Made by a program: the position numbers and the translations under genes
Part shown: one piece after another, positions 8,332-63,997 of the stretch
How positions within the stretch are numbered: the first letter of the stretch is position 1
How the letters are laid out: each line of letters starts with the position of its first letter
Origin: Paludibacter sp.
Lineage (GTDB): Bacteria > Bacteroidota > Bacteroidia > Bacteroidales > Paludibacteraceae
Direction of reading: 5' to 3'
Length of the DNA stretch: 64,000 nucleotides
Assembly (NCBI GenBank): GCA_031292575.1
Contig: JARLGX010000035.1
Location: 62,001 to 126,000 of the forward strand
The notes under the pieces: model-generated
What the model was told of the DNA's origin: nothing
Seen by the model: the letters and a program-made list of their open reading frames with translations, nothing else
Database searches by the model: none

Positions 8332-8354
8332 TTCCCCTTTAGGGGTTAAGGGTC
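8332..8354 (+). repeat. Dispersed palindromic repeat, copy 1 (abuts the waaA start codon)
   Basis: TTCCCCTTTAGGGG followed by TTAAGGGTC; the next base begins the ATG of waaA. Core palindrome CCCCTTTAGGGG. A more degraded reverse copy may lie at about 8262-8285. Confidence 0.8.
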
Positions 8355-9572
8355 ATGAAAATAATCTACTCAACAGGCATTTACCTTTACGGAATCGCGA
8401 TATTTATTGCTTCGCTATTCAATGAAAAAGCCCGATTGCTTCGGAATGGACAACACAATGCGTTTAAACTTTTGAAAGAAAAAGTGGATCCAAATGCACA
8501 TTATGTGTGGTTTCATGCTGCTTCGTTGGGTGAATTTGAGCAAGGCCGGCCGGTAATGGAACAACTTAAAAAAGAACAACCTGACATCAAAATTTTGTTG
8601 ACTTTCTTTTCTCCATCGGGCTATGAAATCAGAAAAAATTATACCGGAGCTGATATCGTTTCATACTTGCCATTAGATATTCCCGGAAATGCATGGTCTT
8701 TTGTGAATTTGGTAAAACCGTCGAAAGCTATTTTTATCAAATACGAATTTTGGCCAAATTACTTGCTGGCGTTAAAAGCAGCAAATGTTCCTGTTTATTC
8801 CATTTCGGCCATTTTTAGACAGGAACAGGTATTTTTCAAGAGTTATGGTAAATGGTATAAAAACTTATTGGCAACATTCCAACATATTTTTGTGCAGGAT
8901 AAAGTTTCGCTTGAATTACTCGAAGAGAACAATATTAAAAACGCCTCGGTTTGTGGTGATACCCGCTTCGACCGTGTTTACGATTTATTTTCCCAGACAA
9001 AACAGCTTCCGTTGATTGAAGAGTTTGTGAAGAGCACAGAAAAAGTGATAGTTGCAGGCAGTACATGGCCGAAGGATGAAGAATTGTTGGTACGATACCT
9101 CAAATTACATCCCGACGTGAAATTAATATTGGTACCACATGAAGTTCATTATGCACATATTTCGGAAATTTCGAAGCTTTTGGATGGTAAATTCGTTCGT
9201 TATTCCGAAGCGAATAATGAGAATGTAAAAACTACTAACTGCCTGGTGGTGGATGTTATCGGAATTCTGTCGTCCATTTACCGTTATGCCAATGTAGCTT
9301 ATATTGGTGGCGGATTTGGGGTTGGAATTCACAATACATTGGAAGCTGCGGTTTACGGCATTCCGGTTGTTTTTGGACCTAATTACCAAAAATTTCGTGA
9401 AGCAAAAGAGTTAATTGCCGTTGGTGGAGCTTTTTCTATCTCGAATTATGTGGTGCTCGAAGCGCAATTAGATGCGCTTTTCAAGGACAAAGAAGCCGGA
9501 AAAATTGCCGGAGAATATGTGAAAGAAAATACCGGAGCGACACAGATGATACTAAATTTATTGGCAAATTAG
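8355..9572 (+). CDS. waaA: 3-deoxy-D-manno-octulosonic acid (Kdo) transferase
   Basis: Inner-membrane-associated GT30 enzyme attaching Kdo from CMP-Kdo to lipid A precursor, a step in LPS core synthesis. An N-terminal membrane anchor (about 5-22) precedes the acceptor-domain motif HAASLGEFEQGRP, with the catalytic Glu near residue 60. The C-terminal half has VAGSTWPKDEE and IGGGFGVGIHNTLEAAVYG, the nucleotide-sugar-binding loop. 405 residues is normal. The start codon abuts a dispersed repeat. hisS follows after 30 nt, so the two are probably co-transcribed. Confidence 0.95.
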   Translation: MKIIYSTGIYLYGIAIFIASLFNEKARLLRNGQHNAFKLLKEKVDPNAHYVWFHAASLGEFEQGRPVMEQLKKEQPDIKILLTFFSPSGYEIRKNYTGADIVSYLPLDIPGNAWSFVNLVKPSKAIFIKYEFWPNYLLALKAANVPVYSISAIFRQEQVFFKSYGKWYKNLLATFQHIFVQDKVSLELLEENNIKNASVCGDTRFDRVYDLFSQTKQLPLIEEFVKSTEKVIVAGSTWPKDEELLVRYLKLHPDVKLILVPHEVHYAHISEISKLLDGKFVRYSEANNENVKTTNCLVVDVIGILSSIYRYANVAYIGGGFGVGIHNTLEAAVYGIPVVFGPNYQKFREAKELIAVGGAFSISNYVVLEAQLDALFKDKEAGKIAGEYVKENTGATQMILNLLAN

Positions 9573-9602
9573 CATATTACCAAATTATCACATTAAATTA
9601 TT

Positions 9603-10961
9603 ATGCAAAAACCTTCTATCCCAAAAGGAACCCGTGATTTTACGCCACAGGAAATGGCAAATCGCAATTATATATTCAATACTATTAAAGACGTTTTTCG
9701 TTTGTACGGCTTTCAGCAGATTGAAACACCTGCTATGGAAAACCTGTCGACTTTGATGGGAAAGTACGGCGAAGAAGGTGATAAATTATTGTTTAAAATA
9801 TTGAATTCAGGCAATTTTGTGAATGGTTTAACTGATGACGAATTGCTTGGACGAAATAGCATAAAACTTACCAATAAAATTTCGGAAAAAGGATTACGTT
9901 ACGATCTTACAGTGCCTTTTGCCCGGTTTGTGGTACAACATCAGAATGAAATTTCGTTTCCATTCAAACGTTACCAAATCCAACCGGTTTGGCGTGCCGA
10001 TAGACCACAAAAAGGACGTTATCGCGAGTTTTACCAATGCGATGTGGATGTGGTGGGAAGTGATTCGTTGCTCAACGAGCTGGAATTGATTCAGATAGTA
10101 GACGAAATTTATCGTCGCCTGAAAATCAAGGTTGTCATCAAGATAAATAACCGCAAAATTCTTTCGGGAATTGCTGAAATCATTGGCGAAGCCGAAAAAA
10201 TTACCGACATAACCGTTGCCATTGATAAAATGGATAAAATTGGATTGGAAAAAGTAAATGAGGAAATTGCGTCGAAAGGAATTTCTGCTGAAGCAATTGC
10301 TAAACTACAACCAATTTTGAAACTCAGCGGAACAAACTCTGAGAAACTTCTTCAGCTTAAAACAGTACTTGCTAATTCAAAAGTTGGACTGAAAGGAGTC
10401 TCGGAACTCGAAACTATTTTCGGGCTTTGCGAAGCCATGAAAGTAAAAACTTCAATTGAGCTTGATTTGACTTTGGCGCGCGGACTGAATTATTATACGG
10501 GAGCTATTTTTGAAGTTAAAGCGTTGGACGTGGAAATGGGTAGCATTACCGGTGGCGGACGATACGATAACCTGACGGGGGTATTTGGTATGGAAGGAGT
10601 TTCCGGCGTTGGTATTTCGTTTGGCGCCGACCGCATTTACGACGTGCTGAATCAACTGGATTTATACCCGGAAACATCGGTAGAGCAAACTAAAATACTC
10701 TTTGTTAGCTTTGGTGAAAAGGAATTGATGTATTGCTTGCCATGGCTAAGCGCCTTGCGAACGAAAGGAATAAATGCCGAAATTTATCCCGAGCCTGCAA
10801 AAATGAAAAAACAAATGAGTTATGCCGATAATAAAAAAATTCCGTTTGTAGCCATTGTTGGTGAAACTGAAATGAACGAAGGCAAAGTTATGTTGAAGAA
10901 TATGAAAACCGGGGAGCAAGCCCTTGTTTCGCAAGAAGAATTGATTGAAAAGTTCCACTGA
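9603..10961 (+). CDS. hisS: Histidyl-tRNA synthetase
   Basis: Class II aminoacyl-tRNA synthetase charging tRNA-His. It opens with the family N-terminus [18 protein letters not shown]. Motif 2 is [20 protein letters not shown] followed by [12 protein letters not shown]. The HisRS-specific [15 protein letters not shown] and motif 3 with GGGRYDNL and [11 protein letters not shown] are present. The C-terminal anticodon-binding domain spans about 345-452. 452 residues is usual for Bacteroidota. The 30-nt gap after waaA has no promoter signature; a terminator follows. Confidence 0.97.
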
Positions 10962-10982
10962 AAAATAGAATTATAAACGAAG

Positions 10983-11021
10983 AAGTCCTGAAGATGTAAT
11001 TGTTTTCAGGACTTTATTTTT
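10983..11021 (+). terminator. Terminator between hisS and the convergent DUF456 gene
   Basis: Stem AGTCCTGAA (10984-10992) / TTCAGGACT (11005-11013) with a T-rich tail TTATTTTTC. The convergent gene's stop codon lies at the edge, so the hairpin may serve both strands. Confidence 0.75.
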
Positions 11022-17124: not shown

Positions 17125-20100
17125 CTATTTTAAAATTATTTGTTTAGATACTACTGTATTTATAGTTTCCCCTTTTACAAGGTAAGTACCAATTGTTAGA
17201 TTTGTTGGTATCGTTGTTATTCCATTTGCACTAAATTGAATTTTATTAAGAACTCTCCCCGAGATGTCGTAAATAGTTAAATTACCCGCAAAATCTGTAT
17301 TGTTCTGAATAAAAATTGTTTTTTCAGAACTAAAAATTTTGATATTGCTGCTGTTGTTATTATTATCAGCAGCAGTCATTGGTAATCCTGTAGGAGTCAA
17401 GCTTGTTACTATTTCAAATCGTTTAACCGGTAGAGTACTAGGGTGTACATTGAAAGTATATTGAGTTCCACTTGTTGTTATATCGGTAGTTGTATTTTCC
17501 AGCAAATCCAGCAAATACTGATGTGTATAATATGTGGAAAGATTCTGATTGGTAAATGTAAGTGTATAAACACTGTCTTCGCCTGCAAGAAACCCAATAT
17601 AAGTTTCGTTAATATTATCCAACGCATCCACCTGATAATTTCCGGATGTTTCCATCCCGAAAATTTGTGGTGCAAGCGTGGATCCCAGTAATTTAGTTCC
17701 ATCCCAACCATTATCATAACCATGCGAACAAGTTGGAATGGTGAGTATCCACATTGTATCAGAGAATCTGGATCCGGTTACGTCAATACGAGTGTAAACA
17801 TCGCCCGATGCAGAAACTTTTTGTATTCCTCTGGTTTTTTGCATGGTTGTGTCTTTTACAGCGATGGAATTATAGTTAAATCCGAAGGTCAAATCACCCG
17901 AAGTGTTTTTTGTCATAATTAAAAAACCTTGCATTGATGCAATTTGACGTTGAATTCCACCTATGCCCGCAGCACTTCTTGGAATTGATGTGTATTGTCC
18001 TGGATAAGTGCCAAAAGATGTACCTCCTGAATTAGTACTCCAATCGGCTAAGCTACCTGTATTATAAATATAAACAGTGGCATCCATATCAGCTCCAAAA
18101 TTTAATTGCCTGATGTCTAATGCTGTAGTATAAGGATTTCCAATTAAATGTTGCCCGGGATAGGATGCCCCTGCTGTATAAGATAATTGCCCGGTAGTGT
18201 AATCAGAATTAACTAAATTACCTTGGAAAAATATAGTTGTTGGAGCAACCTGAGTAATTTCGTAGCCGGTAAATGGATCCAAAATAGAAGCGTTGGTTAG
18301 CGATGACCAGTGTGAAGGAGTGTCATTCTCGTTCATAACTCGCACATAAGAACCATCTAAAGCCGGACTTGGTGGTATGGAACTAACAGGAATACCAAAA
18401 AATTGCCATTTATAATTTGAATACTTGCCCGCAGAATAAGTTGTAGCTGCGGCTTTAGAGTACATTTCAACAGTTGCCGGAACAGGTGAATCTATCGTGT
18501 TGTGGAAGATTAAGGTTCCACTTGCTTTAGTTGGTGTAGATTCAATGATTAAACCTGAAACACCCGCATTATTGACAATAGTTCCAGTTACATTCATTTG
18601 ATTCCCAGCTGAAACAGTTAATGAATTGTTCGGGTTTATTGTCAGAACATTATTGACATTTAAGTCGGTATTTAATCTTACACCCTGAGAATTGTCAATG
18701 CATAAATTTTGTATCTGTCCGTTCAAATATTGATTTGTTTCAATAGTTTGTGCCGAAATACCTGCATAATCTACTGTTGATGAGCTAACTGTTGCGTCAA
18801 TAATTCCGTTCAATAAATTTATTGCCGAACTTCCAGCTATGGTTAGCGTGTCGGCATTGAGTTTTAGTTTCCCGTTGGAAAGTGTAAGTAAACCTTCAAC
18901 TTTTAAAGAATTTGTTAACGTTACAATGTCTGGGTTGTTAATATTTAAATTATTTACAGTGTTATAACTTGGAGTAGTTGTAAAACTTCCCGTAGATATA
19001 CCTTGAAATTCATAATTTGCGCTACTGCTAAATGTATTAGTCATGTTAATAGGGGAAACTGATCCGGAAATACCATTTGCGTTTGATGTTATTAATGTAG
19101 CACCAGGATAGACTGTAAATAATGCGGTTCCCGGCAGACCACCGGCTTGATATACCTGATAAGTTCCAAGGTCAAGCGTTCCATTCACGAAGATTGCTCC
19201 CTGATATCCGAGCTGCGAAATTCCATCGGCGCTGTTTAATGCAATGTTTGAAAGTAACTGAACTTTTTTTCCTGATGGAATTGAATATCCAACAGATGTT
19301 GCACCAACCGGATCAGCAAAACTCAGTGTTTGTGTTGCAGGTCCATTAAAGTAAATGGTTGCATTTTGGGCGCCTGCTCCACTAATTTTCATCGTTGCAT
19401 CTCCTGTTGTTTGACTAAAATTACCGGAAAGAAACATATTGGATGTCCCAGAATTTCCTTGATTAAAATCAAATATGCCACCACTTTGATTGAAGTTTCC
19501 TGTAATAATAAGGTTGTTACTTGTAGCATTATTTAAAACAAACTGACCGGATAATAAGCTGAAATTACCTGAAACTGAAATTGAAGAAAGCGCATTCTTC
19601 ATGCCTGTTCCACTAATAATCAAATTGTTGAAGTTACCGCCACTAATAGTTGTATTCGCTTTTCCATTCAGGTTAATTGTTCCGGTAGTTGTGAAAGTGC
19701 CATTGTTTGTCCAATTTCCTCCGATAGAATCTGTATATACTCCAGTATTAAAAGTTGCTCCATTATCAATAGTAAGATTGCCGCCAATCGTCATTGTTGA
19801 ATCAGCCGTGACTGTGGCTGTTCCGGTTAAAGTAAAATCACCGGCAATCGAAAATGCAGATTCAGGCATCGTTTTAATTCCACTGCCACTAAGAATCAGG
19901 TTATAAAAGCCCTGGTTTGAACCGTTTGTATTCAATACTGTTTGATCAGAACCGTTAAATTCAACGGTATTGGGTAGTAGTGCGGTATTCCAAATTCCAT
20001 TATTTGTTACAATATTTCCAATACGCATTATTGAATTTGTTCTATTTTCAAGATTAGCTCCGAGATTTATTACAAGATTGTAAAAGTTTGTTGTTCCCGA

Positions 20101-23100
20101 ATAGGTTGCTCCGTTTCCAGTAAAAGTAACTGTGCCTATGCCGGAGTTAAATGTACCAGTGTTAATCCAAGCACCCGTTGACCCTGAAATTGTGAGTGGA
20201 TTATCTCCTGAATTTAAGATGCCTCCATTTTGAATATATAAAGTTTTTAGAATTGCTCCTCCGGTTGGAATTGTTAATATATTAGGAGTGGTACTTGCAT
20301 CTGGTATTACAATATTGGCAGTACTATCGGTTAGAGATGGTACTGAATTTGGAGTCCAGTTTTTAGCATAAACCCAATCGCTACTAACACTACCATTCCA
20401 TGTAAATGTTGAAATTCCGGATGTTTCTGCCAACGAAATTTCTATATTTCCGAAAGGTACATTGTTGAAAGGAGCTATGTTTGCGTCGGAAACTCCCACC
20501 CATTCATTGGTCATATCAAAGTTCGAACGTCCTTGTTCTCCGGTTCCATTTAGGGTGCTATGAGTCCAACCCGACAATAAATTTTCAGTATTTCCATTTA
20601 ACTCGCTGTCAAGATAATGAATATTGAAATCGGCTTTTGTTCCTGTTCCGCCGCTTTGAGAAATTTCATAAATTCTTTTTATCGCTGGTTTTCCATAGTC
20701 AGGAGAAATTCCAGTAGTCCAGGTTGGTGCTGTTCCAATCTTTATTTTCAAACTCATGGTTGTTGGTAAAGTTTGACCTGTAACAACTGGAAATTTGATA
20801 TTTGTGAATTGATTCCCAAATGTATAGGATACATTAGTAGTCATGGAGGTTCTTCTCACAATTCCGGTGACATCGCCTAAACCAGTTGTTGTGGCGTTTC
20901 CACCCATGTCAAGTGTATATGCCCCCATATCCAAACTTCCTGCTGTTTCAGATGCGTTTGGACTTTGAAGATTAAGTACTCCATTTACAGTTAAATCATT
21001 TGCTGCAGAAGCTCCGGCAATATTGTTTATTGTTAAGTTATTGAAATTAATAGTCCCACTGACTGATTGTGTTGCTGTTCCGTTAAGTACCACTGTACTT
21101 GTATTTGCATTAAATGTTCCATTATTGTTTAAGTTTCCACCAATATTAATGGTAAAGTTAGATGCATCGAATGTTGTACCGGAAGCTAAAGATACATTTC
21201 CAATTAAATTCAAATCTTCGGTTGCTAAAACTTTAGCAGAACCGCTCATTGTAAAATCGCCATTAATAGTCATATCTACTGCGGGCAATGTTTTTGTACC
21301 ACTACCGCTAAGTATAAGGTTTGAGTATTGGTTCGTTGCAGGGTTTGGTACAACTACGAATTGATCTACGCCATTGTAATTAACAGTGGTTGTGCCTTGG
21401 GATGTTGTATTCCAAACTCCATTATTGTTTACAGTGCCTGCAATACCAATTACTGAGCCAGAAAGAGTTTCTAATTTTGAACCAGGATTAATTGTAATAT
21501 TGTAAAAGTTTGTAGTGCCCGAAATGGTTGCAGCAGGGTTTACGAAAATGATGGTACTGTTCGCAGGATTAAATGTTCCGTCGCTATTCCATGCGCCGTT
21601 ACTTCCATCAATAGTAAGCACTGCATTAGTAGCAGAATTTAATATTGCTCCATTTTGGATGTTAATGGTTGATATTTCTGCAGATAACGGCAGAGAAGGA
21701 CTGTATGCTGTTCCGCTGGGGATTATTACATTAGAAGTTGCAATTGGCAGAGTGGAATTAATCCAGTTGGTATTATCATTCCAATCGCTGCTGGTTACTC
21801 CGGTCCAAATGCATGAGGTCTGTGCAGAATTTGCTAATGTAAACTGCGTGCCTGTTGGAAAGGAAAAGTTTATATTACTCATTGTAATATAATTATTTGT
21901 GGCGTCATAATCGGAACGAGAGTTTTCAACTGAAGATACATTGTCAATACTATACCATGGCACTAAAGAACTTTCGGTGTTTAAATTTAACTCTGAATCA
22001 AGATAATGCATCTTAATTGTAGCTTGAGTATTCGTAGCACCGATTTCAAACATTGTATATTTACGTTGTATTGCATTTGTTTTCCAACTTGGTGCTGTCC
22101 CAATACTTAAATTAATACTCATCGATGTTGGTAACGTTCCAACGTGAGCAAAAATTATTGAAGAGTTTGGATTCCCAAATGTATATAACGTATTGGCATT
22201 AATAGCATTTCTACTTACCGTGCCTGTTACGTCACCTAATCCCGAAGTGATTGAAGTTGGTCCCATATTTAACGTGTTTGCCCCCATATCAAGGCAACCT
22301 TGTGTGGCCGAAGTATTTGCACTTTGCAAATACAATGTTCCATTTACAGTTAAATCATTTACAGATGAAACTCCTGCCGAATTATTTATAGTCAGATTGT
22401 TGTAAGTTGTGTTGCCCGTGATTGTTTGTGCTGATGTTCCGTTGAAAATAATTGATCCTGCTTCGGGATTGAAAATGCCGCTGTTTGACCAATTTCCTGC
22501 AATACTCAACGTTAATGCAGTTCCAACATCAAATGTTCCTGAACTAATTGCCAGATTTCCATTAAGAGTTAAAGTTGTAGTACTTCCACTCACATTCAGT
22601 GTTTGTCCGGTGTTACTTAAAGTGATATTATTAAATGTCTGACTGTTGCTGGTTCCGGTTATTGTTTGGTTACCACTTGCATTATTGAAATTAACAGTGC
22701 TTGTGCCCGGCACAAAAGCACCGCCGTTATTTGTCCAGTTTCCATTAACAGAATGAGTAAAAGAAGATGCATTAAAAGTCCCTGAATTCAAAATCACATT
22801 CCCTATAAAATTGATTGTATTTCCGGCATTTGCTGTTCCCGTCCCATTCATTGTAAAATCTCCTGAAACAGTCATTGCTGTTGACGGTAATGTCTTTGTT
22901 CCACTTCCGCTTAATATTAAGTTTGAATATCCGTTTGTAGAACCGTTTGGGTTTATGATTGTTTGGTCTACACCATTATATTCTACGGTATTCAAATTGT
23001 TAGCTGCATTTAAAATTCCTGTTGCAGAAAGTGATAATGTGCCGGCTATCCTCATCACATTGTTTGTTCCAAGCGATAAGTTAGCACCATCGGCCACTGT

Positions 23101-25947
23101 TACATTGTAGAAATTAGTGGGGTCAGACATTGTTGCCAATGCATTTGTAAAAATAACAGTACTTGTTCCCGGATTAAATGCTCCAAGATTATTCCATGAA
23201 CCCAAACCTCCGTTTACAGTAAGAATACTTCCTCCTCCATCATTCAAAACACCGCCTGATAGTATATTAATTGAAGCCACACTGGCAGTTGCAGGTAAAG
23301 TTGGTTGATAAACAGTTGTAGCTTTATCGGGAATAACCACCGCACTTGTTGAAGTTGGAACTCCACCTACCCAGTTGTTGGCATCATTCCAATCTGAGCT
23401 ATTGGCACCTAACCAGGTAAAATTGGGTGTTTGAGAAGTACCAAGGGTATAGTATTTACTTGGAAATGTTGTTTGTGGAGCCGTATATGTCAGCGATCTT
23501 TCTGTTACTCCCACCCATTTGTCGGTGGTGCTATAATTTGAACGTCCATGATCATCAAGTTGCAACGTTTGGCTTACATGATAATCGAACATGTCTAAAT
23601 TTCCCTCGGTAGCACTATTAAGTTCGCTTGGCAGATAATGCAGATTTAATGTTACTAAAGTGGCTGAACTTCCACCAGTTTGAATGATGTCGTAATATCG
23701 GTTTATAGCATCTGCTTTCCAGGTATGTATGGGAGTTAATACTATTTTAAAGCTAACGGAACTTGGCAAAATGCCACCGGCAGCAAGAGCTAACGTGGTG
23801 AACTGATTTCCAAAGCTATAAGGAGTATTTACCACAAAGGTTGTTCTATTTACAATTCCGGTGACATCTCCGGTTCCTGTTGTAGTGGCAGTTGCTCCCA
23901 TGAATAAAGTGTTTGTTCCCATTTCCAGACAACCTTGTGTCGCAGATGCATTTGCACTTATCAAATTTAAAATTCCATTCACAGTAACATCTCCGTTAGC
24001 TGTTTTTGAGTTTGTGCCAGTGCCACTGATTGTCAGATTGCTATAAGTTCCTGAACTTATTGTTTGAGTGGCTGGTGCTGCATAATTTACCGTAGTACCA
24101 CTTGCAGTATTCATCGTTGTAAATGAAGGAAAATTGCTGTAATTGACATTGTATGTTCCCGAAGTTAGATTAAGTATTCCAGTGGCTGTAAGTTGAAAAC
24201 TTCCATCGTTAAAAATGCTTCCGGTTACAATACTTCCAATAGTGAATGGATTTGAGCCAATATTTTTAGCAGCGTTGAGCGTAACTCCATTTGCATTTTC
24301 AATTTTCACACCTCCACTGCTTGACCATATGGAAGGAAACTCAATTCCGGTTGTTTGAGCAGCACTTCCTTTGTATTGGAGGGTTGCTGAAGCCCCATAA
24401 GTTGGAACAACAGTTGCTGTTGCAGTACCTTCCATTGAAAGAATGCCATTTACAGTTATTCCTGTTGTTGTTTTAGCACTTGTGCCTGAAAGTATGAGAT
24501 TATTATAGGTAAGTTGAGCTAAAGTTTGTGGATTTGCTGCATAATATTCTACTGTTCCTGTGTTTGCTGTAAATGTACCGCCACTACCGCTATATCCGCT
24601 GCCAAGTCTTAAAGTACTAGAACCGCCATCAAGTGTTCCATTTGTTCTTGTCCATGTGTTTGAAAATGTGTGGGTAAGTCCTACACCTAGGTTAAGTGTA
24701 CCACCATTGCCATTTAAAAATAATTGACCACCATTTACAGCTCCGGTGAAGGTGGCTGTTCCGCCGGTTTTAGTCATTGATACAGTTCCTGTTGTAGTGA
24801 ATCCAGCAATACTTTGCGAAGCCATAGTATTTGCTATAACAATATTTGAACTTCCCGCTGTAAAAGTTCCATTATTTATAAAGTTACCTCCGAAGGTTAA
24901 TTGGTTGTTGTGCGTTGCTAATTTTGCATTGTTATTGATTGTAAGTGGCACAGAAATATTAAACACTTTAGAAGCATATAAATTGATAGTTCCTGTGTTG
25001 GTTATATAAACACCACCTATTGCCACAAATGGTGTTATCCATTCGGCACCGGCATTTTTTGATGAAGAACTATTATACTGAAGGGTTGCATTTGAGCCAT
25101 AGGTTGGTGCAGCGCTAATTGTTTGGGTACCTTCCATTGATAGTATTCCATTGACTGTTATTGAAGTTGTTGTTTTAGTTCCCGAACCACCTAAAGTCAA
25201 ATTGCTATAAATGCTTGGTTTCACTGTCTGAGATCCACCCGAATAAATCACTGTATTGCCAGACGCAGCGGCATTTAAATTTGTAATTGATGTTGTGCCT
25301 AATAATGTAAGGGTACCGGTTACATCGTTAGTTAATGTTCCAGTTCCTGTTAAAGAAGTACTAACTGTGAATAATCCGGAATTCGTATAAGTGCCGTTTA
25401 TCGTAACATTGGCGATTGAAGTTATTGAACTACAATTAATTACCATCGAAGAACCTGTAAATGTATGAGAGCCTGTTAAAGCAGTAAATGTAGTTCCATT
25501 GTTTGTAAAATTATTAGAAAAGGTGAAAGTTGGTATTGCCAGCGAGTTTGTTTCATTCCATATAGCTCCGGAATTTAGTGTCGTTGAACCATTGAATGTC
25601 ATCTGGCAAGAGGTTGAATTTGTAGAACCGAAATTTATTCTTCCATTAATCAAAGTGGCTCCATTTACGACAAAAGGACGATTCATTGTTAATATAGAGC
25701 CACTGTTGATTGTTACAGATGCACAAGTTATTGTTCCAGTGCTTGTTGTAACACTTCCTGATCCAGTAGTTGCAATAATAACACCATCGGTCGATAGTGG
25801 TATTATATTTCCAACCCAGGTTGATGTTGAATTCCAGTCGCCTCCTGTAGATGTACTGGTTATTGTAGCAGCATTTAACGATGTCGAAGTCCAAAGAAGA
25901 AGAACAATTTGTAATAATTTAAAAAAAGTAGAGTTTAGAGCTTTCAT
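17125..25947 (-). CDS. Giant repetitive T9SS-secreted surface protein (2940 aa)
   Basis: Signal peptide (about 1-26) followed by a very long Ser/Thr/Asn/Gly-rich beta-helix-like region and a C-terminal T9SS type-A sorting domain (about 2865-2940: NIKIFSSEKT, LTIYDISGRVLNKI, GTYLVKGE, KQIILK). Such proteins cross the outer membrane by type IX secretion and are usually anchored to surface polysaccharide. The body is built of super-repeats. SSDWND-type segments recur near 36, 850, 1387 and 1860. A module with GDVTG, YTFGN and HYLxSELN recurs near 700, 1260 and 1710. Between them are short repeats of the GTFN/NLTI/GSGTKT kind. An adhesin or matrix role is inferred. There is no catalytic domain I recognise. 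A -7-like TATATTTG (26004-26011) lies upstream. Confidence 0.9.
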   Translation of the reverse strand: MKALNSTFFKLLQIVLLLWTSTSLNAATITSTSTGGDWNSTSTWVGNIIPLSTDGVIIATTGSGSVTTSTGTITCASVTINSGSILTMNRPFVVNGATLINGRINFGSTNSTSCQMTFNGSTTLNSGAIWNETNSLAIPTFTFSNNFTNNGTTFTALTGSHTFTGSSMVINCSSITSIANVTINGTYTNSGLFTVSTSLTGTGTLTNDVTGTLTLLGTTSITNLNAAASGNTVIYSGGSQTVKPSIYSNLTLGGSGTKTTTSITVNGILSMEGTQTISAAPTYGSNATLQYNSSSSKNAGAEWITPFVAIGGVYITNTGTINLYASKVFNISVPLTINNNAKLATHNNQLTFGGNFINNGTFTAGSSNIVIANTMASQSIAGFTTTGTVSMTKTGGTATFTGAVNGGQLFLNGNGGTLNLGVGLTHTFSNTWTRTNGTLDGGSSTLRLGSGYSGSGGTFTANTGTVEYYAANPQTLAQLTYNNLILSGTSAKTTTGITVNGILSMEGTATATVVPTYGASATLQYKGSAAQTTGIEFPSIWSSSGGVKIENANGVTLNAAKNIGSNPFTIGSIVTGSIFNDGSFQLTATGILNLTSGTYNVNYSNFPSFTTMNTASGTTVNYAAPATQTISSGTYSNLTISGTGTNSKTANGDVTVNGILNLISANASATQGCLEMGTNTLFMGATATTTGTGDVTGIVNRTTFVVNTPYSFGNQFTTLALAAGGILPSSVSFKIVLTPIHTWKADAINRYYDIIQTGGSSATLVTLNLHYLPSELNSATEGNLDMFDYHVSQTLQLDDHGRSNYSTTDKWVGVTERSLTYTAPQTTFPSKYYTLGTSQTPNFTWLGANSSDWNDANNWVGGVPTSTSAVVIPDKATTVYQPTLPATASVASINILSGGVLNDGGGSILTVNGGLGSWNNLGAFNPGTSTVIFTNALATMSDPTNFYNVTVADGANLSLGTNNVMRIAGTLSLSATGILNAANNLNTVEYNGVDQTIINPNGSTNGYSNLILSGSGTKTLPSTAMTVSGDFTMNGTGTANAGNTINFIGNVILNSGTFNASSFTHSVNGNWTNNGGAFVPGTSTVNFNNASGNQTITGTSNSQTFNNITLSNTGQTLNVSGSTTTLTLNGNLAISSGTFDVGTALTLSIAGNWSNSGIFNPEAGSIIFNGTSAQTITGNTTYNNLTINNSAGVSSVNDLTVNGTLYLQSANTSATQGCLDMGANTLNMGPTSITSGLGDVTGTVSRNAINANTLYTFGNPNSSIIFAHVGTLPTSMSINLSIGTAPSWKTNAIQRKYTMFEIGATNTQATIKMHYLDSELNLNTESSLVPWYSIDNVSSVENSRSDYDATNNYITMSNINFSFPTGTQFTLANSAQTSCIWTGVTSSDWNDNTNWINSTLPIATSNVIIPSGTAYSPSLPLSAEISTINIQNGAILNSATNAVLTIDGSNGAWNSDGTFNPANSTIIFVNPAATISGTTNFYNITINPGSKLETLSGSVIGIAGTVNNNGVWNTTSQGTTTVNYNGVDQFVVVPNPATNQYSNLILSGSGTKTLPAVDMTINGDFTMSGSAKVLATEDLNLIGNVSLASGTTFDASNFTINIGGNLNNNGTFNANTSTVVLNGTATQSVSGTINFNNLTINNIAGASAANDLTVNGVLNLQSPNASETAGSLDMGAYTLDMGGNATTTGLGDVTGIVRRTSMTTNVSYTFGNQFTNIKFPVVTGQTLPTTMSLKIKIGTAPTWTTGISPDYGKPAIKRIYEISQSGGTGTKADFNIHYLDSELNGNTENLLSGWTHSTLNGTGEQGRSNFDMTNEWVGVSDANIAPFNNVPFGNIEISLAETSGISTFTWNGSVSSDWVYAKNWTPNSVPSLTDSTANIVIPDASTTPNILTIPTGGAILKTLYIQNGGILNSGDNPLTISGSTGAWINTGTFNSGIGTVTFTGNGATYSGTTNFYNLVINLGANLENRTNSIMRIGNIVTNNGIWNTALLPNTVEFNGSDQTVLNTNGSNQGFYNLILSGSGIKTMPESAFSIAGDFTLTGTATVTADSTMTIGGNLTIDNGATFNTGVYTDSIGGNWTNNGTFTTTGTINLNGKANTTISGGNFNNLIISGTGMKNALSSISVSGNFSLLSGQFVLNNATSNNLIITGNFNQSGGIFDFNQGNSGTSNMFLSGNFSQTTGDATMKISGAGAQNATIYFNGPATQTLSFADPVGATSVGYSIPSGKKVQLLSNIALNSADGISQLGYQGAIFVNGTLDLGTYQVYQAGGLPGTALFTVYPGATLITSNANGISGSVSPINMTNTFSSSANYEFQGISTGSFTTTPSYNTVNNLNINNPDIVTLTNSLKVEGLLTLSNGKLKLNADTLTIAGSSAINLLNGIIDATVSSSTVDYAGISAQTIETNQYLNGQIQNLCIDNSQGVRLNTDLNVNNVLTINPNNSLTVSAGNQMNVTGTIVNNAGVSGLIIESTPTKASGTLIFHNTIDSPVPATVEMYSKAAATTYSAGKYSNYKWQFFGIPVSSIPPSPALDGSYVRVMNENDTPSHWSSLTNASILDPFTGYEITQVAPTTIFFQGNLVNSDYTTGQLSYTAGASYPGQHLIGNPYTTALDIRQLNFGADMDATVYIYNTGSLADWSTNSGGTSFGTYPGQYTSIPRSAAGIGGIQRQIASMQGFLIMTKNTSGDLTFGFNYNSIAVKDTTMQKTRGIQKVSASGDVYTRIDVTGSRFSDTMWILTIPTCSHGYDNGWDGTKLLGSTLAPQIFGMETSGNYQVDALDNINETYIGFLAGEDSVYTLTFTNQNLSTYYTHQYLLDLLENTTTDITTSGTQYTFNVHPSTLPVKRFEIVTSLTPTGLPMTAADNNNNSSNIKIFSSEKTIFIQNNTDFAGNLTIYDISGRVLNKIQFSANGITTIPTNLTIGTYLVKGETINTVVSKQIILK

Positions 25948-45836: not shown

Positions 45837-46805
45837 ATGGCTAAGAAAAAATTTCATTTCAATCCCGAAACTTTAAGTTACGAGCAAATTGAACATACAA
45901 TTTCACATTGGCTGAAACAATTGGCTATTCACGCCTTTTCGGGAGTATTTTTGGGGATAATATTTTTCTTTATATTTGTTTCTACTATTCAATCACCTCA
46001 GGAAAAACAACTTGGACAGGATAAGACGCACATGGAAGCTCAATATAAAGTACTACAGCGACAATTGGCAGAAGTTCAATATGTGATGTCTGATTTGGAA
46101 CAACGCGATGATAATCTTTACAGGGTAGTTTTTCAGGCAGATCCAATTCCACTTTCAGTGCGTAGAGGAAGTTCAGCTAATACCGATTATTATGAACAAC
46201 TGCTGGATATGACAAATTCAGAAATTGTTGTTTCCACTACCAAAAAGTTGAATGAGCTTAAAAAAGAGCTTTATATTCAGTCTAAATCCTATGATGAATT
46301 AGTGCTTTTGGCAAAAAATAATGAAACCATGCTGGCCGATCTTCCTGCAATTCAGCCTATTTCTAATAAAAATTTAATGCGCATGGCTTCAGGTTACGGC
46401 TGGCGTATTGACCCAATTTATCATACCCGACGTTTTCATGCAGGTATGGACTTTGCAGCACCAATAGGTACTGATATTTTTGCAACTGCTAACGGAACAA
46501 TTCAAAGTGCAGGTTGGGAGCAAGGTTATGGTAACTGCGTACAAATTAATCATGGATATGGTTATGTTACTTTGTATGGACACATGAGTGCCATTAAAGT
46601 ACGAGTTGGACAGTCTGTAAAGCGAGGAGAAATAATAGGTTTGGTTGGAAACACGGGTAGGTCAACCGGTCCTCACGTACATTATGAGGTGCATTTTAAA
46701 GGTCAAATTATGAATCCTCAAAATTATTATTATCTCGATTTGTCGCCTGCTGATTACGATAAGATGGTTCAAATGAGTAATAATGCCGGACAGATGCTGG
46801 ATTAA
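45837..46805 (+). CDS. M23 family (LytM-type) metallopeptidase
   Basis: 322 residues: short cytoplasmic tail, one membrane helix (about 32-52), a coiled-coil periplasmic stalk (about 60-165), then an M23 domain. The zinc ligands are visible in RRFHAGMDFAAP (H, D) and GPHVHYEVHF (H-x-H), with GYGWRIDPIYH preceding. It is a bitopic inner-membrane protein, cell-wall endopeptidase or amidase activator; the intact ligand set favours an active enzyme. A dispersed repeat follows its stop codon, before murI. Confidence 0.93.
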   Translation: MAKKKFHFNPETLSYEQIEHTISHWLKQLAIHAFSGVFLGIIFFFIFVSTIQSPQEKQLGQDKTHMEAQYKVLQRQLAEVQYVMSDLEQRDDNLYRVVFQADPIPLSVRRGSSANTDYYEQLLDMTNSEIVVSTTKKLNELKKELYIQSKSYDELVLLAKNNETMLADLPAIQPISNKNLMRMASGYGWRIDPIYHTRRFHAGMDFAAPIGTDIFATANGTIQSAGWEQGYGNCVQINHGYGYVTLYGHMSAIKVRVGQSVKRGEIIGLVGNTGRSTGPHVHYEVHFKGQIMNPQNYYYLDLSPADYDKMVQMSNNAGQMLD

Positions 46806-46808: not shown

Positions 46809-46833
46809 AACCCCTAACCCGCCTAAAGGGGAA
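46809..46833 (-). repeat. Dispersed palindromic repeat, copy 2
   Basis: Reverse orientation: AACCCCTAACCCGCCTAAAG then GGGAA, just after the M23 stop codon (46803-46805). Confidence 0.8.
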
Positions 46834-46860: not shown

Positions 46861-47742
46861 ATGGATAAAGATAATGTCATACAAAACAAAACTAACTCTG
46901 TTCCCTTTCAGGGGTTAGGGGCTTCAGGTCCAATCGGAATTTTCGATTCGGGCTATGGAGGTTTGACGATTCTGGAAAAAATTCGTGCAGAATTGTCTGA
47001 ATATGATTATATTTATCTGGGCGATAATGCCCGAACTCCTTACGGAACGCGTTCGTTTGATGTGGTTTATAAATATACATTGGAATGCGTGGAGAAAATG
47101 TTCGAAATGGGATGCCAGTTGGTGGTGTTGGCTTGTAATACAGCTTCTGCAAAAGCGTTGCGCACCATCCAACAACATGATTTACCAAAGATTGATCCAA
47201 ACAGACGTGTGTTGGGAGTTATTAGACCAACTGTGGAAGCCGTAGGGGCGATGACAAAAAGCAATCATATCGGGTTACTGGCAACTACCGGAACTGTTCA
47301 GTCGAACTCTTACCCACTTGAAATACACAAAATTCATGAAGATATCATCGTCACTTCCGAAGCTTGCCCTATGTGGGTTCCGTTGATTGAGAATAATGAA
47401 CATTTATCGGATGGTGCAGATTATTTTGTAAAAAAAAATGTAGAACATTTATTGGCTGCCGATTCACAGATTGATACAATTATGCTCGGTTGTACGCACT
47501 ATCCATTGTTGGAAAAGAAAATAAAATCTTTGTTGCCGGAAGGAATCAGAGTGGTTTCGCAAGGTGAAATTGTGGCAAAAAGTCTGGCAGATTATCTAAA
47601 ACGACATCCTGAAATGGAAAAACGTTGTACTAAAAATGCTTCTATCCGCTATTTCTCGACTGAATCTGTTGAAAAGTTTTCCTCATCTGCTTCTGTTTTC
47701 TTAAACGAAGAAATTCAGGCCGAACACATTGATTTGGGATAA
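46861..47742 (+). CDS. murI: Glutamate racemase with repeat-encoded N-terminal extension
   Basis: Makes D-glutamate for peptidoglycan. Catalytic cysteines are in VVLACNTASAKALR and LGCTHYPLLE; the substrate loop is GIFDSGYGGLTILEKI. The family normally begins a few residues before PIGIFDSG. Here the first usable start (46861) adds about 24 residues, of which SVPFQGLGAS is encoded by a dispersed repeat. No ATG, GTG or TTG lies in frame between the repeat and the IGIFDSG motif, so the repeat must be translated. 293 residues in all. An even earlier in-frame ATG at 46783 overlaps the M23 gene and is less likely. Confidence 0.93.
   Translation: MDKDNVIQNKTNSVPFQGLGASGPIGIFDSGYGGLTILEKIRAELSEYDYIYLGDNARTPYGTRSFDVVYKYTLECVEKMFEMGCQLVVLACNTASAKALRTIQQHDLPKIDPNRRVLGVIRPTVEAVGAMTKSNHIGLLATTGTVQSNSYPLEIHKIHEDIIVTSEACPMWVPLIENNEHLSDGADYFVKKNVEHLLAADSQIDTIMLGCTHYPLLEKKIKSLLPEGIRVVSQGEIVAKSLADYLKRHPEMEKRCTKNASIRYFSTESVEKFSSSASVFLNEEIQAEHIDLG
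46902..46923 (+). repeat. Dispersed palindromic repeat, copy 3 (inside murI coding sequence)
   Basis: TCCCTTTCAGGGGTTAGGGG: CTTTAG of the consensus is TTTCAG here, which removes an in-frame TAG. It encodes PFQGLG. Confidence 0.8.
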
Positions 47743-54752: not shown

Positions 54753-54772
54753 ACCTCTAACCCCTAAAGGGA
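54753..54772 (-). repeat. Dispersed palindromic repeat, copy 4
   Basis: Reverse orientation (ACCTCTAACCCCTAAAGGGA), 16 nt upstream of the small winged-helix gene's ATG. Confidence 0.75.
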
Positions 54773-54810
54773 AATAGAGAAGTTATTATATTTGACCCAT
54801 TGACTCTTGC

Positions 54811-54833
54811 TCCCTTTTAGGAGTTGGGGGTCA
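54811..54833 (+). repeat. Dispersed palindromic repeat, copy 5 (supplies the tyrA stop codon)
   Basis: TCCCTTTTAGGAGTTGGGGG then TCA. Read on the minus strand the final bases are TGA, the stop codon of the tyrA-like gene. Confidence 0.8.
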
Positions 54834-55604
54834 TTCGATGTTCTTTCTCACTTTTTTCAAAAAAGTCTGCATTCGGTCAGTATCTTTATTTTCGATAATG
54901 TCAAGCAAGACCTTCAGTTCTGCACGGATGTTTTCTACTTGTTTGGGCGTGTTAGGGTTGAAAAGAATTTCGGTCAACAAATAATCGTCCTCCGACAACA
55001 ATCCTTTGGCAATATCCATGTGGCGTTTAAAAGTTGTTCCGGGAGCTTCCTGCGGTTTCATTACCGACGCAAATACCAACGTGGATGCAAATGGTATGGA
55101 AAGTGAATAGGCAATTGTTTCGTCATGCTCATCAAAACTATATTCAAAAATTTTCAATTTCAACGACCCGTATAAATCTTTGAAAAACGCCTTGCCCATA
55201 TGGTCCGATTCCGAAATAATAATGGCACTTTGCGTACTCAGATTATCGAGTGTGGCAAAGGTAGGTCCGAACATTGGATGGGTAGAAACATAACGCATAC
55301 CGGTGCTTTCGTAATAGCTCTGCAAGCCGGTTTTTACCGAAGCAATATCTGAAATGATACAACTTTTTGGCAAATAAGGCAACACTGTCTGAAAAGCCTC
55401 GATGGTAAATTTCAAGGTCACACAGTTGATAACCAGCTCCGGCTCAAAGGCACGAACTTCTTCGTAAGTGGTCATCCGATAAGTATTGAACACGAAACGC
55501 AACCGTGTCGGATCAGTATCGAACAAAGCTACTTCGTGCTGAATGCACAATACGTCGGTAAGGAATGTGCCCATTTTTCCGGCACCAAGAACTAATATCT
55601 TCAT
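54831..55604 (-). CDS. tyrA: Prephenate dehydrogenase
   Basis: 257-residue NAD(P)-dependent enzyme of tyrosine synthesis. Rossmann motif VLGAGKMGTFLTDVL at the N-terminus, then LVINCVTLKFTIEAFQ, SDIASVKTGL and the family signature STHPMFGPTFATLD, followed by a helical C-terminal dimerisation domain. No ACT or chorismate mutase domain is fused. It lies between two dispersed repeats, one providing its stop codon and one 7 nt upstream of its start. Confidence 0.9.
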   Translation of the reverse strand: MKILVLGAGKMGTFLTDVLCIQHEVALFDTDPTRLRFVFNTYRMTTYEEVRAFEPELVINCVTLKFTIEAFQTVLPYLPKSCIISDIASVKTGLQSYYESTGMRYVSTHPMFGPTFATLDNLSTQSAIIISESDHMGKAFFKDLYGSLKLKIFEYSFDEHDETIAYSLSIPFASTLVFASVMKPQEAPGTTFKRHMDIAKGLLSEDDYLLTEILFNPNTPKQVENIRAELKVLLDIIENKDTDRMQTFLKKVRKNIE

Positions 55605-55610: not shown

Positions 55611-55634
55611 TGACCCCTAACCCCTAAAGGGGAA
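55611..55634 (-). repeat. Dispersed palindromic repeat, copy 6 (just before the tyrA start)
   Basis: TGACCCCTAACCCCTAAAGG then GGAA on the plus strand. In the sense of tyrA it reads TTCCCCTTTAGGGG then TTAGGGGTCA, 6-7 nt before the ATG: one of the closest copies to consensus. Confidence 0.85.
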
Positions 55635-55712: not shown

Positions 55713-55735
55713 TCCCCCTTTAGGGGTTAGGGGTC
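55713..55735 (+). repeat. Dispersed palindromic repeat, copy 7 (supplies the ampG C-terminus and stop)
   Basis: TCCCCCTTTAGGGG then TTAGGGGTC. On the minus strand it encodes the final residues T-P-N-P and the TAA stop of the AmpG-like protein. Confidence 0.85.
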
Positions 55736-57000: not shown

Positions 57001-57026
57001 ATAATTTGCGTAGGGGTTGAATTATT

Positions 57027-57048
57027 TCCCCTTTATGGGTTAGGGGTA
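57027..57048 (+). repeat. Dispersed palindromic repeat, copy 8 (supplies the spoIID stop)
   Basis: TTCCCCTTTATGGGTTAGGGG then TA. On the minus strand the TAA within CCCCTAACCC ends the SpoIID-like protein after Tyr-Pro. Confidence 0.8.
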
Positions 57049-59878: not shown

Positions 59879-59889
59879 TTGAAAAATAC

Positions 59890-61436: not shown

Positions 61437-62948
61437 CTAATAAGAAATTGAGTTTTTTCTTGCCTTAAGCTCTATCGTTCGGATTTTATCTTTGTATAAA
61501 TTATTTACATTCATTTTTACTACATCAAGCGAAGCGTCCGAATTTTCATCCCAACGTCGACAGAGGTAAAGAGAAGTGAAAATACGGCCAATCTGATATT
61601 CGCGACTGATGCGTAACCCGAGGGCGTAATCCTCGCCATAACTTGTATTGGGCACTTTTATTTCACGAAGAACCGGTGTGTAGAAAGCGCGTGGAGCACC
61701 AAGTCCATTAATACGCAGTGCATTATTGCGACCGTTTTCGGGGGTCCATTCTTTGTGATCAATTAGTCCTGGCGGAATGGTTTCCATTTCAAAGTTAGTC
61801 ATGGTATACGAACCGATAACCATCGCGCAGTTTTGTTCGTAAAAAGCATCAACGATAGTTTGAAGCGTATTTTCATCCTGATACACATCGTCGCTATCCA
61901 GCTGAACGGCAAATTTTCCACAGGCTGAGTTGTTCAATCCCACGTTCCAGCATCCGCCTATACCAAGGTCATTGCGGTTCGGGATAATATGAATTACCCG
62001 ATTGTCCAGCGAAGCATATTTCTGAATTAATTCCGAGGTGCCATCAGTTGAAAAATTATCGATAATAATCAAATTAAATTCGAATGAAGTTTTCTGCATT
62101 AATACCGATTTAATGGCATCTTCCACTGTTTTTACACGGTTTCTAATAGGAATAATTACCGAAGCTTCCACCGGAAAATTACTTTCGTTGAATTCGATTT
62201 TCTTGAATTGCGGAGCTAAATATCCGCCAATTTTCTTTAAATGGTCGGTGCAGGCTGTTTCCATTTCCACTTGCACTGCACGGTTTTTGGGATCAACATA
62301 GTCAAATTGTTTTTCGCCGCTTTTTCTCGTGTCCGTTTCCACTTCGGCGTACAAAAATTCGTTTATATGCACCAGCTCCGCCTGTTGCGATACTTTCAAC
62401 CGTAAGTTATACAGTCCAGCAAATTGATAATTAACTGTGGTTTGGGCAACGGCTTTTTTCAGACAATCGGCGTTATAGAATAGCACCGAACCAAAATTGA
62501 AATCGTCGCGCAGGCTGCCTTCCTGATAATCAATCACAGGATGAATGGAACGAACGTCGTTTTTAATTTCCCAATAATCGGAATAAACAAGTCCGGCATG
62601 AGTATCTTCGGCAATGCTGAAAAAGCGTTCCAGAGCGTATTGTCCCAGATCAAGTGTGGTGTCTTTGGTGTAAATAAGCGTGTAAGGTGTGTCTGCTTTT
62701 CCGGCAATTTTGCAAATGGTTTCCCAACTTTGGAGAGAGTCAATTTTCAGCGTTTGGCAACCATCAATTTGTATGTTAGTTTCTTTTTTTACAAGGAGAT
62801 AAATGGTTTGAACGAGCGAAGACTGTTTAATTTGCTCAATGGTTTTGAGTGATTCAGCAGTGTCGCTACAAGCTAAGAAGCAATTGATGACCCCCAACCC
62901 TCTGAAGGGGGCTTTTGCCTCAGTGGAATTTGTCGGTTGAATATTCAT
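61437..62948 (-). CDS. Family 2 glycosyltransferase with repeat-encoded N-terminal segment
   Basis: 503 residues. The N-terminal half (about 20-250) is a degenerate GT-A-like domain (LIYTKDTTLDLGQYALERFF). The C-terminal half is a canonical GT2 domain: EASVIIPIRNRVKTVEDAIK, IIDNFSTDGTSELIQKYASL, NDLGIGGCWNVGLNNS, QLDSDDVYQ (D-x-D-D) and YGEDYALGLRISREYQ. The segment KAPFRGLGVI near residues 12-21 is encoded by a dispersed repeat, with no alternative start after it. The acceptor is unknown. No membrane helices, so a cytoplasmic enzyme. Confidence 0.85.
   Translation of the reverse strand: MNIQPTNSTEAKAPFRGLGVINCFLACSDTAESLKTIEQIKQSSLVQTIYLLVKKETNIQIDGCQTLKIDSLQSWETICKIAGKADTPYTLIYTKDTTLDLGQYALERFFSIAEDTHAGLVYSDYWEIKNDVRSIHPVIDYQEGSLRDDFNFGSVLFYNADCLKKAVAQTTVNYQFAGLYNLRLKVSQQAELVHINEFLYAEVETDTRKSGEKQFDYVDPKNRAVQVEMETACTDHLKKIGGYLAPQFKKIEFNESNFPVEASVIIPIRNRVKTVEDAIKSVLMQKTSFEFNLIIIDNFSTDGTSELIQKYASLDNRVIHIIPNRNDLGIGGCWNVGLNNSACGKFAVQLDSDDVYQDENTLQTIVDAFYEQNCAMVIGSYTMTNFEMETIPPGLIDHKEWTPENGRNNALRINGLGAPRAFYTPVLREIKVPNTSYGEDYALGLRISREYQIGRIFTSLYLCRRWDENSDASLDVVKMNVNNLYKDKIRTIELKARKNSISY
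62889..62912 (-). repeat. Dispersed palindromic repeat, copy 9 (inside the glycosyltransferase gene)
   Basis: Plus strand ACCCCCAACCCTCTGAAGGG then GGC. In the gene's sense it reads CCCCCTTCAGAGGGTTGGGG then GTC and encodes A-P-F-R-G-L-G-V. Confidence 0.8.
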
Positions 62949-62984
62949 TTATGGAGATTTTATTATTTATTCTATTTGGGTTGT

Positions 62985-63014: not shown

Positions 63015-63050
63015 TTTAAAACCTCACTATGCTATTTTGAAAATTAGTCA

Positions 63051-63058
63051 TATCTTTG
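63051..63058 (+). promoter_or_regulatory. -7 box of the BadF-type kinase gene
   Basis: TATCTTTG 29 nt before the ATG at 63087. It fixes the start upstream of the translated repeat. Confidence 0.6.
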
Positions 63059-63086
63059 TGTCTGTTACAAGTAAAATTTAAATTAG

Positions 63087-63968
63087 ATGATTGAGAATAA
63101 AGTAACTCCAAAGTCCCTTTTAGGGAATTTAGGGGTCATATTAATAGCCGATAGTGGATCTACTAAAACGCAATGGTGTTTAGTGCAGAATGGAAATATT
63201 GTAAGCAAGTTGAATACAGATGGAATTAATCCGTTTTACCAGACCGACATGGAAATTATTTCTTTGATTGAATCTCAACTGATTCCTCAATTGGTCAATG
63301 CAGACATCGACCGGATTTATTTCTACGGTGCTGGATGTTCATTCCCCGAAAAAAAGATGGTGGTCAGTCGGGCATTAATACGTTTTTTCAATAACTCGAT
63401 GATTGAGATTCAAAGCGATTTGCTTGGTGCGGCCCGTTCATTGTTTCAACACGAAAAGGGAATTGCCTGCATACTTGGAACTGGTTCCAATTCTTGTTTT
63501 TATGATGGAAATGAAATATTGCAAAATGTATCTCCGCTTGGGTTTATTATGGGCGACGAAGGTAGTGGGGCGGTTTTGGGCAAGCTTTTCGTGGCTGATT
63601 GTCTGAAAAATCAATTATCGCCGGAATTAAAAGAAACTTTTTTAAGCCGATATAACTTAACTCCTGCCGAAATTATGGATAGTGTTTATAAAAAACCTTT
63701 TCCAAATCGGTTTTTGGCTCAATTCACTCCATTTTTATTGGAGAATATTGAAAATTCTTCGATATTTAATTTGATATTCGATAGTTTTGATGCTTTTCTT
63801 GTTCGCAATGTAATGCAATATCCGTTGGAAAATGTAGAAGTGGGATTTGTGGGTTCAATAGCCCATTATTTCAGGGATATGCTCGAAATTGTGGCATTGG
63901 AACGGGGAATAAGAATTTCTGAAATTGTACAAAGTCCGATGGGCGGATTGGTGAATTTCCATTCATAA
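63087..63968 (+). CDS. BadF/BadG/BcrA-type ATPase (probable amino-sugar kinase) with repeat-encoded N-terminus
   Basis: 293-residue ASKHA-fold kinase. Phosphate-1 motif LIADSGSTKTQWCLV, YFYGAGCSF, a second acidic motif QSDLLGAARSLF, the adenosine loop CILGTGSNSCFYDG and GFIMGDEGSGAVLGKLF. This layout matches N-acetylglucosamine/N-acetylmuramic acid kinases, fitting wall-sugar salvage with AmpG nearby. Homologues normally start one or two residues before LIADSGSTKT. Here a 17-residue extension is present, with SLLGNLGVI encoded by a dispersed repeat and no usable start after it. The sugar is not determined by sequence. Confidence 0.88.
   Translation: MIENKVTPKSLLGNLGVILIADSGSTKTQWCLVQNGNIVSKLNTDGINPFYQTDMEIISLIESQLIPQLVNADIDRIYFYGAGCSFPEKKMVVSRALIRFFNNSMIEIQSDLLGAARSLFQHEKGIACILGTGSNSCFYDGNEILQNVSPLGFIMGDEGSGAVLGKLFVADCLKNQLSPELKETFLSRYNLTPAEIMDSVYKKPFPNRFLAQFTPFLLENIENSSIFNLIFDSFDAFLVRNVMQYPLENVEVGFVGSIAHYFRDMLEIVALERGIRISEIVQSPMGGLVNFHS
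63112..63137 (+). repeat. Dispersed palindromic repeat, copy 10 (inside the kinase gene)
   Basis: AGTCCCTTTTAGGGAATTTA then GGGGTCAT; read in frame as S-L-L-G-N-L-G-V-I. Confidence 0.8.
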
Positions 63969-63973
63969 CTAAC

Positions 63974-63997
63974 TGACCCCTGACTCCTAAAGGGGAA
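63974..63997 (-). repeat. Dispersed palindromic repeat, copy 11
   Basis: TGACCCCTGACTCCTAAAGG then GGAA in reverse orientation, 5 nt after the kinase stop codon and near the right edge of the window. Confidence 0.8.

Follow-up and report, generated by a model that had tools for sequence, protein, structure and literature searches.

Several described systems resemble a short GC-rich palindrome, here termed F1, that recurs at gene ends in a 64,000-nucleotide stretch of Paludibacter DNA (the window: contig C20:62001-126000 of the 40-contig genome G000; genus Paludibacter, Bacteroidales). Here we describe the anatomy of the element to which F1 belongs, its orientation at gene ends, the loss of native start codons behind it, its presence and absence between species, and the two-sided association of such repeats with genes for DUF559 nucleases. 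Homing endonuclease genes offer one parallel, that of a small nuclease gene recurring at one conserved site (the trpB|trpE junction, 5 of 30 loci), but these DUF559 genes stand alone between two elements rather than in an intron or intein, and they accompany a dispersed repeat family. Miniature inverted-repeat transposable elements (MITEs) such as Correia/NEMIS and ERIC likewise have inverted terminal arms, are small, lie near genes and are transcribed as hairpins. F1 elements, in contrast, show no recognised target-site duplication, have partly conserved interiors, and have a nuclease rather than a transposase as candidate partner.

Rickettsia palindromic elements, as treated in the consulted part of a review (PMC10969869), are palindromic elements of ~150 bp that are translated in frame with host genes, whereas F1 fusions are N-terminal, lie in operon junctions and supply the start codon; those review passages mention no nuclease partner. 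Repetitive extragenic palindromes (REPs) and REP-associated tyrosine transposases (RAYTs), in the consulted portion of Di Nocera 2013 (PMC3733652), share with F1 many short GC-rich palindromes, inverted dimers, a frequent position between co-directional genes and a repeat-flanked partner gene, and the same portion leaves open the partner enzyme of the CGTC repeats. F1 is indeed a many-copy extragenic palindrome in the 20-40 bp range of REPs, with 131 genome matches and 95 of 141 arms at gene ends. However, its candidate partner is a PD-(D/E)XK-type nuclease instead of a tyrosine transposase, and its repeats touch or overlap the start and stop codons of genes. Neither a GTAG nor a CGTC tag appears at F1 ends in a position profile of 124 copies, and no RAYT gene was flanked by F1 arms of at least 20 bits in the 9 Y1 transposase loci read, of 30 fetched. 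F1 works like a REP-RAYT pair yet falls outside the REPs, because it lacks the GTAG tag and has no RAYT beside it in those nine loci.

The initial annotation described a ~24-bp palindromic repeat with a bias for, or a tolerance at, gene ends. A lone palindrome of that size that is simply tolerated there is not supported. We find instead that each palindrome is one arm of a ~125-bp element that lies mostly between co-directional genes, often supplies the stop and start codons of its neighbors, and flanks one subtype of DUF559 gene. Arms were scored with a 22-bp weight matrix, 12 bits or more counting as a match, in a 370-kb set made up of the window and 37 stretches from its own genome; these were picked for holding hits and drawn from the matches listed (100 of 131 genome places). 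The set yielded 165 matches against 1 in a reversed control, or 158 arms once overlaps were merged. Across the whole genome, 131 places match the pattern with at most one mismatch and none matches the reversed pattern, while in the window TTCCCCTTTAGGGG gives 8 matches with up to two mismatches (100 shuffles: mean 0.27, largest 4). The arm core is TTCCCCTTTAGGGGTTAGGGGT; in the profile of 124 copies its flank on the TTCCCC side is weakly conserved and the other flank hardly at all.

Outward-facing inverted pairs hold 122 of the 158 arms, giving 61 pairs with terminal inverted repeats as in MITEs; other neighbors within 300 bp face inward (7) or the same way (9). Spacing is 65-125 bp in 52 of the 61 pairs. 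Read in gene sense, an element consists of a left arm that abuts or supplies the upstream stop codon, an AT-rich leader and a right arm followed by the downstream gene, and about half of the elements carry their own ATG and some 20 codons between leader and right arm. Interiors are clearly alike only in a subset, the copies in trp and nif-like clusters, with up to 0.83 identity.

Gene ends were taken from our own open reading frame (ORF) calls (245 genes, 74% of the bases of the 370-kb set), which miss small genes, so that some arm-to-gene-end distances are too long. The GGGGT side of the arm lies at a gene start or stop in 95 of 141 arms, leaving out a tandem array at locus L068, compared with 3 of 141 when the orientation is flipped. 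The mean is 10 for random positions (largest 23 in 1000 draws) and rises to 32 when positions are drawn only from outside gene bodies (largest 48 in 1000 draws). Placement is therefore far from random with respect to gene ends; a random distribution was one of two outcomes that would have spoken against the initial idea. Orientation, which had been left open with copies recorded in either direction, proves a strong signal. The reported absence of mid-gene copies nearly holds, since ORF calls contain just four of the 158 arms at a depth of over 110 nt, and the one in the window (46901) reflects an over-long ORF start. Among 57 pairs with both neighboring genes called, 48 are between co-directional genes, 8 belong to the L068 array and 1 is convergent. 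Background neighbors are also mostly co-directional (175 of 207), against which the 48 of 49 pairs remaining without the array represent an enrichment (Fisher p 0.001 or 0.008, depending on counting). Orientation is the stronger of these two signals.

The translational contribution of the element was examined in 43 pairs between co-directional genes, turned into gene sense. By ORF calls, the upstream stop lies -25 to +15 nt from the left arm in 31 of these, and the downstream start lies directly past the right arm in 16 and within the element in 14. Direct reading of frames, by sequence only, shows that in 22 of 43 elements an ATG of the element opens a frame that runs into the next gene, and that 16 of these 22 fusion elements lack another ATG in that frame up to 15 codons from the arm. 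Genes starting inside an element include trpE, trpG and murI. From their translations, we take the fused genes of locus L052 to be TrpE, TrpG, TrpF and TrpB, the example at L075 to belong to a nif-like cluster, and the genes at L069 to be CysN/CysH-like. The arm is translated in all three frames (17, 4 and 1 of the 22 fusion elements), and thus the palindrome, rather than a peptide, is probably what is kept. TTCAG in place of TTTAG was seen in 8 of the 22 fusion elements and in none of the other 21; since the classes are partly defined by the open frame, this substitution is weak support for a frame argument.

Because some junctions held a DUF559 frame, we searched the genus genomes for the corresponding Pfam family, PF04480, and found matches in 30 of 40. 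Of 41 stand-alone copies that look complete, all but G024:C62 and G031:C148 were read, and these 39 fall into five subtypes, A to E, by motif and tree. The family is of the PD-(D/E)XK type; the candidate active-site residues D and E.D are invariant in all 39 copies and H is found in 38. Among PDB entries the protein matches 3hrl (‘endonuclease-like protein’). We take YcjD to be a DUF559 member. In the consulted part of one study (PMC1189080), YcjD counts as a putative PD-(D/E)XK protein and matches Vsr.

All 10 intact type A genes have F1 arms scoring at least 20 bits on either side, as do 5 of 8 type B genes but none of the 21 genes of types C, D and E. Type A occurs once per genome in 11 of 40 genus genomes, one copy being degraded, and its members are 62-100% identical to the query, the next type reaching at most 52%. 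The four other subtypes have palindromic repeats of their own, and the window copy, of type D, sits between inverted arms. Pairs of loci whose flanks share at least six 12-mers are frequent within subtypes (A 42/45, B 17/28, C 6/6, D 45/45, E 16/21; 126/145 together), a figure inflated because upstream flanks include some N-terminal codons. Between subtypes, 40 of 80 pairs share as much when the sister types A and B are compared, and 18 of 516 in all other combinations. Five type A genes occupy the trpB|trpE junction, where TrpB ends in an arm-encoded tail such as TPNP in all five, and in G016 an element - DUF559 - element unit fills the spoIID|MFS junction, the site of window arm 57026. At ~2900-4600 of L068 (G000 C14:237000-242577), a 134-bp unit consisting of an F1-variant element is repeated in tandem, and the middle of this array holds a type B DUF559 gene.

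In the window, whose genes were scanned with Pfam, all 11 copies recorded initially were recovered, 9 of them at 12 bits or more. The decayed copy suspected near 8262 is, by eye, a decayed left arm paired with the arm at 8332. The features are as follows.

8261..8286, minus strand: decayed left arm, partner of 8332, by eye
8332..8353, plus strand: F1 right arm (37.1 bits); the ATG of a kdotransferase-like gene (8355-9572; Pfam Glycos_transf_N) starts 2 nt downstream
46809..46833, minus strand: left arm with an insertion, owing to which the ungapped matrix missed it; directly past the stop codon (46803-46805) of an M23 peptidase gene
46861..46900, plus strand: element ATG and leader codons, from the reading frame; the racemase (MurI-like) protein, Pfam Asp_Glu_race, starts MDKDNVIQNKTNSVPFQGLGASGPIGIFD
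46901..46922, plus strand: F1 right arm, translated (32.6 bits)
54753..54774, minus strand: F1 right arm ahead of a small minus-strand gene (31.6 bits)
54810..54831, plus strand: F1 left arm at the TGA stop of a prephenate-dehydrogenase-like gene, 54831-55604 (27.7 bits)
55613..55634, minus strand: F1 right arm (42.3 bits) within the dehydrogenase gene's 5′ leader
55713..55734, plus strand: F1 left arm supplying the stop of a major facilitator superfamily (MFS) gene (39.3 bits; protein end read as ..KKTPNP*)
57026..57047, plus strand: F1 left arm supplying the stop of a SpoIID-like gene (35.9 bits)
62890..62912, minus strand: right half-element within the first codons of a glycosyltransferase gene, 61437-62948 (14.6 bits)
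63113..63137, plus strand: diverged right arm within the first codons of a BadF-like gene, 63087-63968 (4.9 bits, by eye)
63976..63997, minus strand: F1 left arm past the BadF-like gene (33.0 bits); partner outside the window at C20:126077
2040..2079, plus strand: type D arm upstream of the window DUF559 gene, read in the sequence
2094..2471, plus strand: DUF559 nuclease gene of subtype D, not an F1 partner (PF04480 E 7.8e-34; PDB 3hrl E 1.2e-17)
2483..2520, minus strand: type D arm downstream of the window DUF559 gene, inverted to the first, read in the sequence

The window also holds one 2940-aa open frame on the minus strand (17125-25947).

Comparison between species supports the initial suggestion of a short mobile repeat tied to gene ends, and conservation at the same loci everywhere, the second outcome that would have spoken against it, was not found. 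Junction states were read by eye in printed sequence and placed on a TrpE tree, on which they are scattered. The trpE|trpG junction carries an F1-type element in 14 of 30 loci and none in 9; the remainder comprise 2 without trpG in the stretch, 2 unreadable, 1 with two elements around a degraded DUF559 gene, 1 with another fusion and 1 with another family before the native ATG. At trpB|trpE, 5 of 30 loci hold the nuclease gene with elements, 6 an element alone, 2 an element and the native ATG, and 8 none, the rest having another family before the native ATG (4), another fusion (1), a contig end (1) or other repeats (3). Sister species differ: G004 is full and G021 empty, and G023 has an element where G017 has none. 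In G023 the former trpE ATG reads TTG behind the element, and in G033 the empty trpE|trpG junction measures 11 nt. Boundaries at trpG fall into types (GTC|AAA in 4, GTTGT|CGT in 2, GCAT.|TC. in 6, single ones in 3), which suggests repeated insertion, although later divergence might also have produced them.

The dehydrogenase gene of the window, compared in 30 loci, is accompanied by an F1 pair (G000, G063, G015, G028), by single arms, by another GC-rich family or by none, and in G062 and G020 the other family occupies the same two places. The promoter between the arms here is of the TACCTTTG type. We considered a MITE inserted as one block around promoters and rejected it, because this promoter also stands in relatives without the arms; interior and arms therefore have separate histories at this gene. 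Invertible promoters likewise seem unlikely: the interior, where it is conserved, is directional in gene sense, so that the pairs do not look like switch boxes. Other word-like intergenic repeats, such as CGTAACTTGTAAC, AACGCAAAT..CGCAAAT and ATTCGTATTAATTCG, were seen at the same start- or stop-adjacent places in relatives (L077-L105). Moreover, murI and the dehydrogenase gene are either close neighbors or ~8 kb apart (G005, G009, G026 and G035 versus G000 and G016), so that gene order here is fluid.

Beyond this genome, the 22-mer with up to two mismatches occurs in 29 of 35 same-genus genomes and in 2 of 24 genomes from other families of the order. The exact 24-mer, with one genome per species, returns 78 stretches, mostly from Paludibacter or uncultured Bacteroidales, with a few from other Bacteroidota. 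The exact 22-mer was also seen in 48 stretches of a viral contig collection (L166-L213), which may be phage or host DNA. By tblastn, DUF559 was not found in the 126 loci fetched by exact pattern (L166-L291). PF04480 itself matches 109 of 198 genomes of the phylum. Among 30 loci returned, 18 were new stand-alone DUF559 loci from 12 families, and in 11 of these the two flanks share at least 15 bp (null 1.3% of 306, largest 22); far ends of 13 phylum loci share at most 11 bp. At one of the 11, L395, the shared stretch is AT-rich and forms no hairpin. Twelve plasmid loci chosen among 39 records with a match gave at least 15 bp in five (null largest 13 bp in 132 pairs), namely from Picosynechococcus, Pseudanabaena, Azospirillum lipoferum, Deinococcus and one Sphingomonas plasmid. 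Annotation places the Deinococcus copy between paaD and paaZ and a further Sphingomonas copy, one lacking a two-sided repeat, inside a transhydrogenase operon.

On balance we favor the view that F1 forms a short palindromic mobile element (~125 bp) of operon junctions with the type A DUF559 nuclease as its partner. In this scheme the element would come between two genes of an operon and still leave the second one active, since it carries along a stop codon, a leader and, frequently, a start codon. The type A gene is found in such junctions too, with an element on either side, and the small nuclease may be the enzyme that spreads the element: it would recognize the folded arms and cut DNA, whereupon repair would copy the element into a new junction. 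Copies without the nuclease gene could have been moved in trans, or could be what remained once recombination between a pair of flanking elements had deleted the gene. Selection would keep those copies that preserve translation, which would explain the orientation, frame and place of the element. More tentatively, DUF559 nucleases might supply the enzyme so far missing for a large class of GC-rich palindromic repeats found in several phyla. Nuclease and repeat together would then be a class of mobile element that relies on a PD-(D/E)XK nuclease in place of a transposase and makes its way through operons by donating stops, leaders, starts and N-terminal peptides.

Several observations weigh against the partnership. 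Movement and cutting by DUF559 are inferred rather than observed. Genomes with intact type A do carry more F1 copies (10 versus 26 genomes, one-sided p 0.003), and of 36 genomes the 8 that lack a PF04480 match altogether carry 0, 0, 0, 0, 1, 5, 24 and 40 copies (p 0.001), but this test ignores phylogeny and draft completeness, and F1-rich genomes without a type A match exist (G028, 144 copies; G023, 80; G020, 71). Left and right elements are clearly sisters in only 2 of 10 type A loci (p 0.051). Median interior identity is 0.56 versus 0.53 for shuffled sequence in 43 aligned elements, arms within one element are no more complementary than arms across elements (18.23 versus 18.12 of 22; reached by 1133 of 5000 permutations), and no target-site duplication was recognised by eye in the printed flanks of pairs. 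Among the 18 phylum loci, and likewise among the 12 plasmid loci, 7 lack the two-sided repeat. DUF559 is also part of long frames of about 600-1500 aa, as in the one match of G006; these are probably not such mobile units.

The same F1-rich genomes without type A, together with an own genome that has about 60 pairs and one type A gene, are what would be expected if a MITE were moved by some ordinary transposase, with DUF559 a passenger or a separate selfish gene settling in the same operon junctions. We regard this explanation as unlikely, since it leaves aside that every intact type A gene is flanked on both sides and that each DUF559 subtype has a different repeat family. Quite improbable, in our view, is that the pairs are host regulatory or RNA-processing sites, such as hairpins between cistrons that a nuclease processes, and that they are not selfish but owe their spread chiefly to selection and recombination. 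RNA folding does pair the left with the right arm in 42 of 43 elements, and the elements recur in trp and nif-like clusters. However, arm covariation, tried as proof of RNA function, was negative in the 43 elements; Rfam gave no match in four loci (L052, L075, L068 and L040); close relatives have no element or another family at the same place; and the DUF559 link would go unexplained. That F1 consists of ordinary REP elements mobilised by RAYT-like Y1 transposases is very improbable even with its GC-rich hairpins in inverted pairs and Y1 matches in 33 of 40 genus genomes, because the consensus lacks the GTAG tag and the nine readable Y1 loci are bordered by other repeats, such as GGTGCGTAGCACC..TTTGTAG, or by none, with F1 scoring at most 13.3 bits. 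The Y1 genes at L156, L159, L163, L136, L137, L139 and L151 are bordered by the hairpins GGTGCGTAGCACC..TTTGTAG, GCCGCGTAGCGG..TTGGTAG and TCCCCGTAGGGGATA, and from their sequences these repeats look like ordinary RAYT-REP pairs of the genus.

In open-licence PubMed Central (PMC), judged by title and the start of the abstract, no paper joins DUF559 (COG2852, YcjD, PF04480) or Vsr-like nucleases with such repeats, although a report elsewhere is possible; likewise CCCCTTTAGGGG, CCCCTAAAGGGG, CCCCCTTTAGGGGG and SPLGVRG led to no related paper in open-licence PMC text. The DUF559 family is widespread and owes its name to its unknown function, and many families of palindromic repeats are without a known enzyme. 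Since each nuclease subtype can be matched to a repeat family, both questions come within reach of tests in an ordinary laboratory host. A further lesson of the elements is how inserted DNA can become established in a biosynthetic operon, namely by carrying replacements for the translation signals it pushes aside, and many enzyme start sites in such genomes would need re-annotation.

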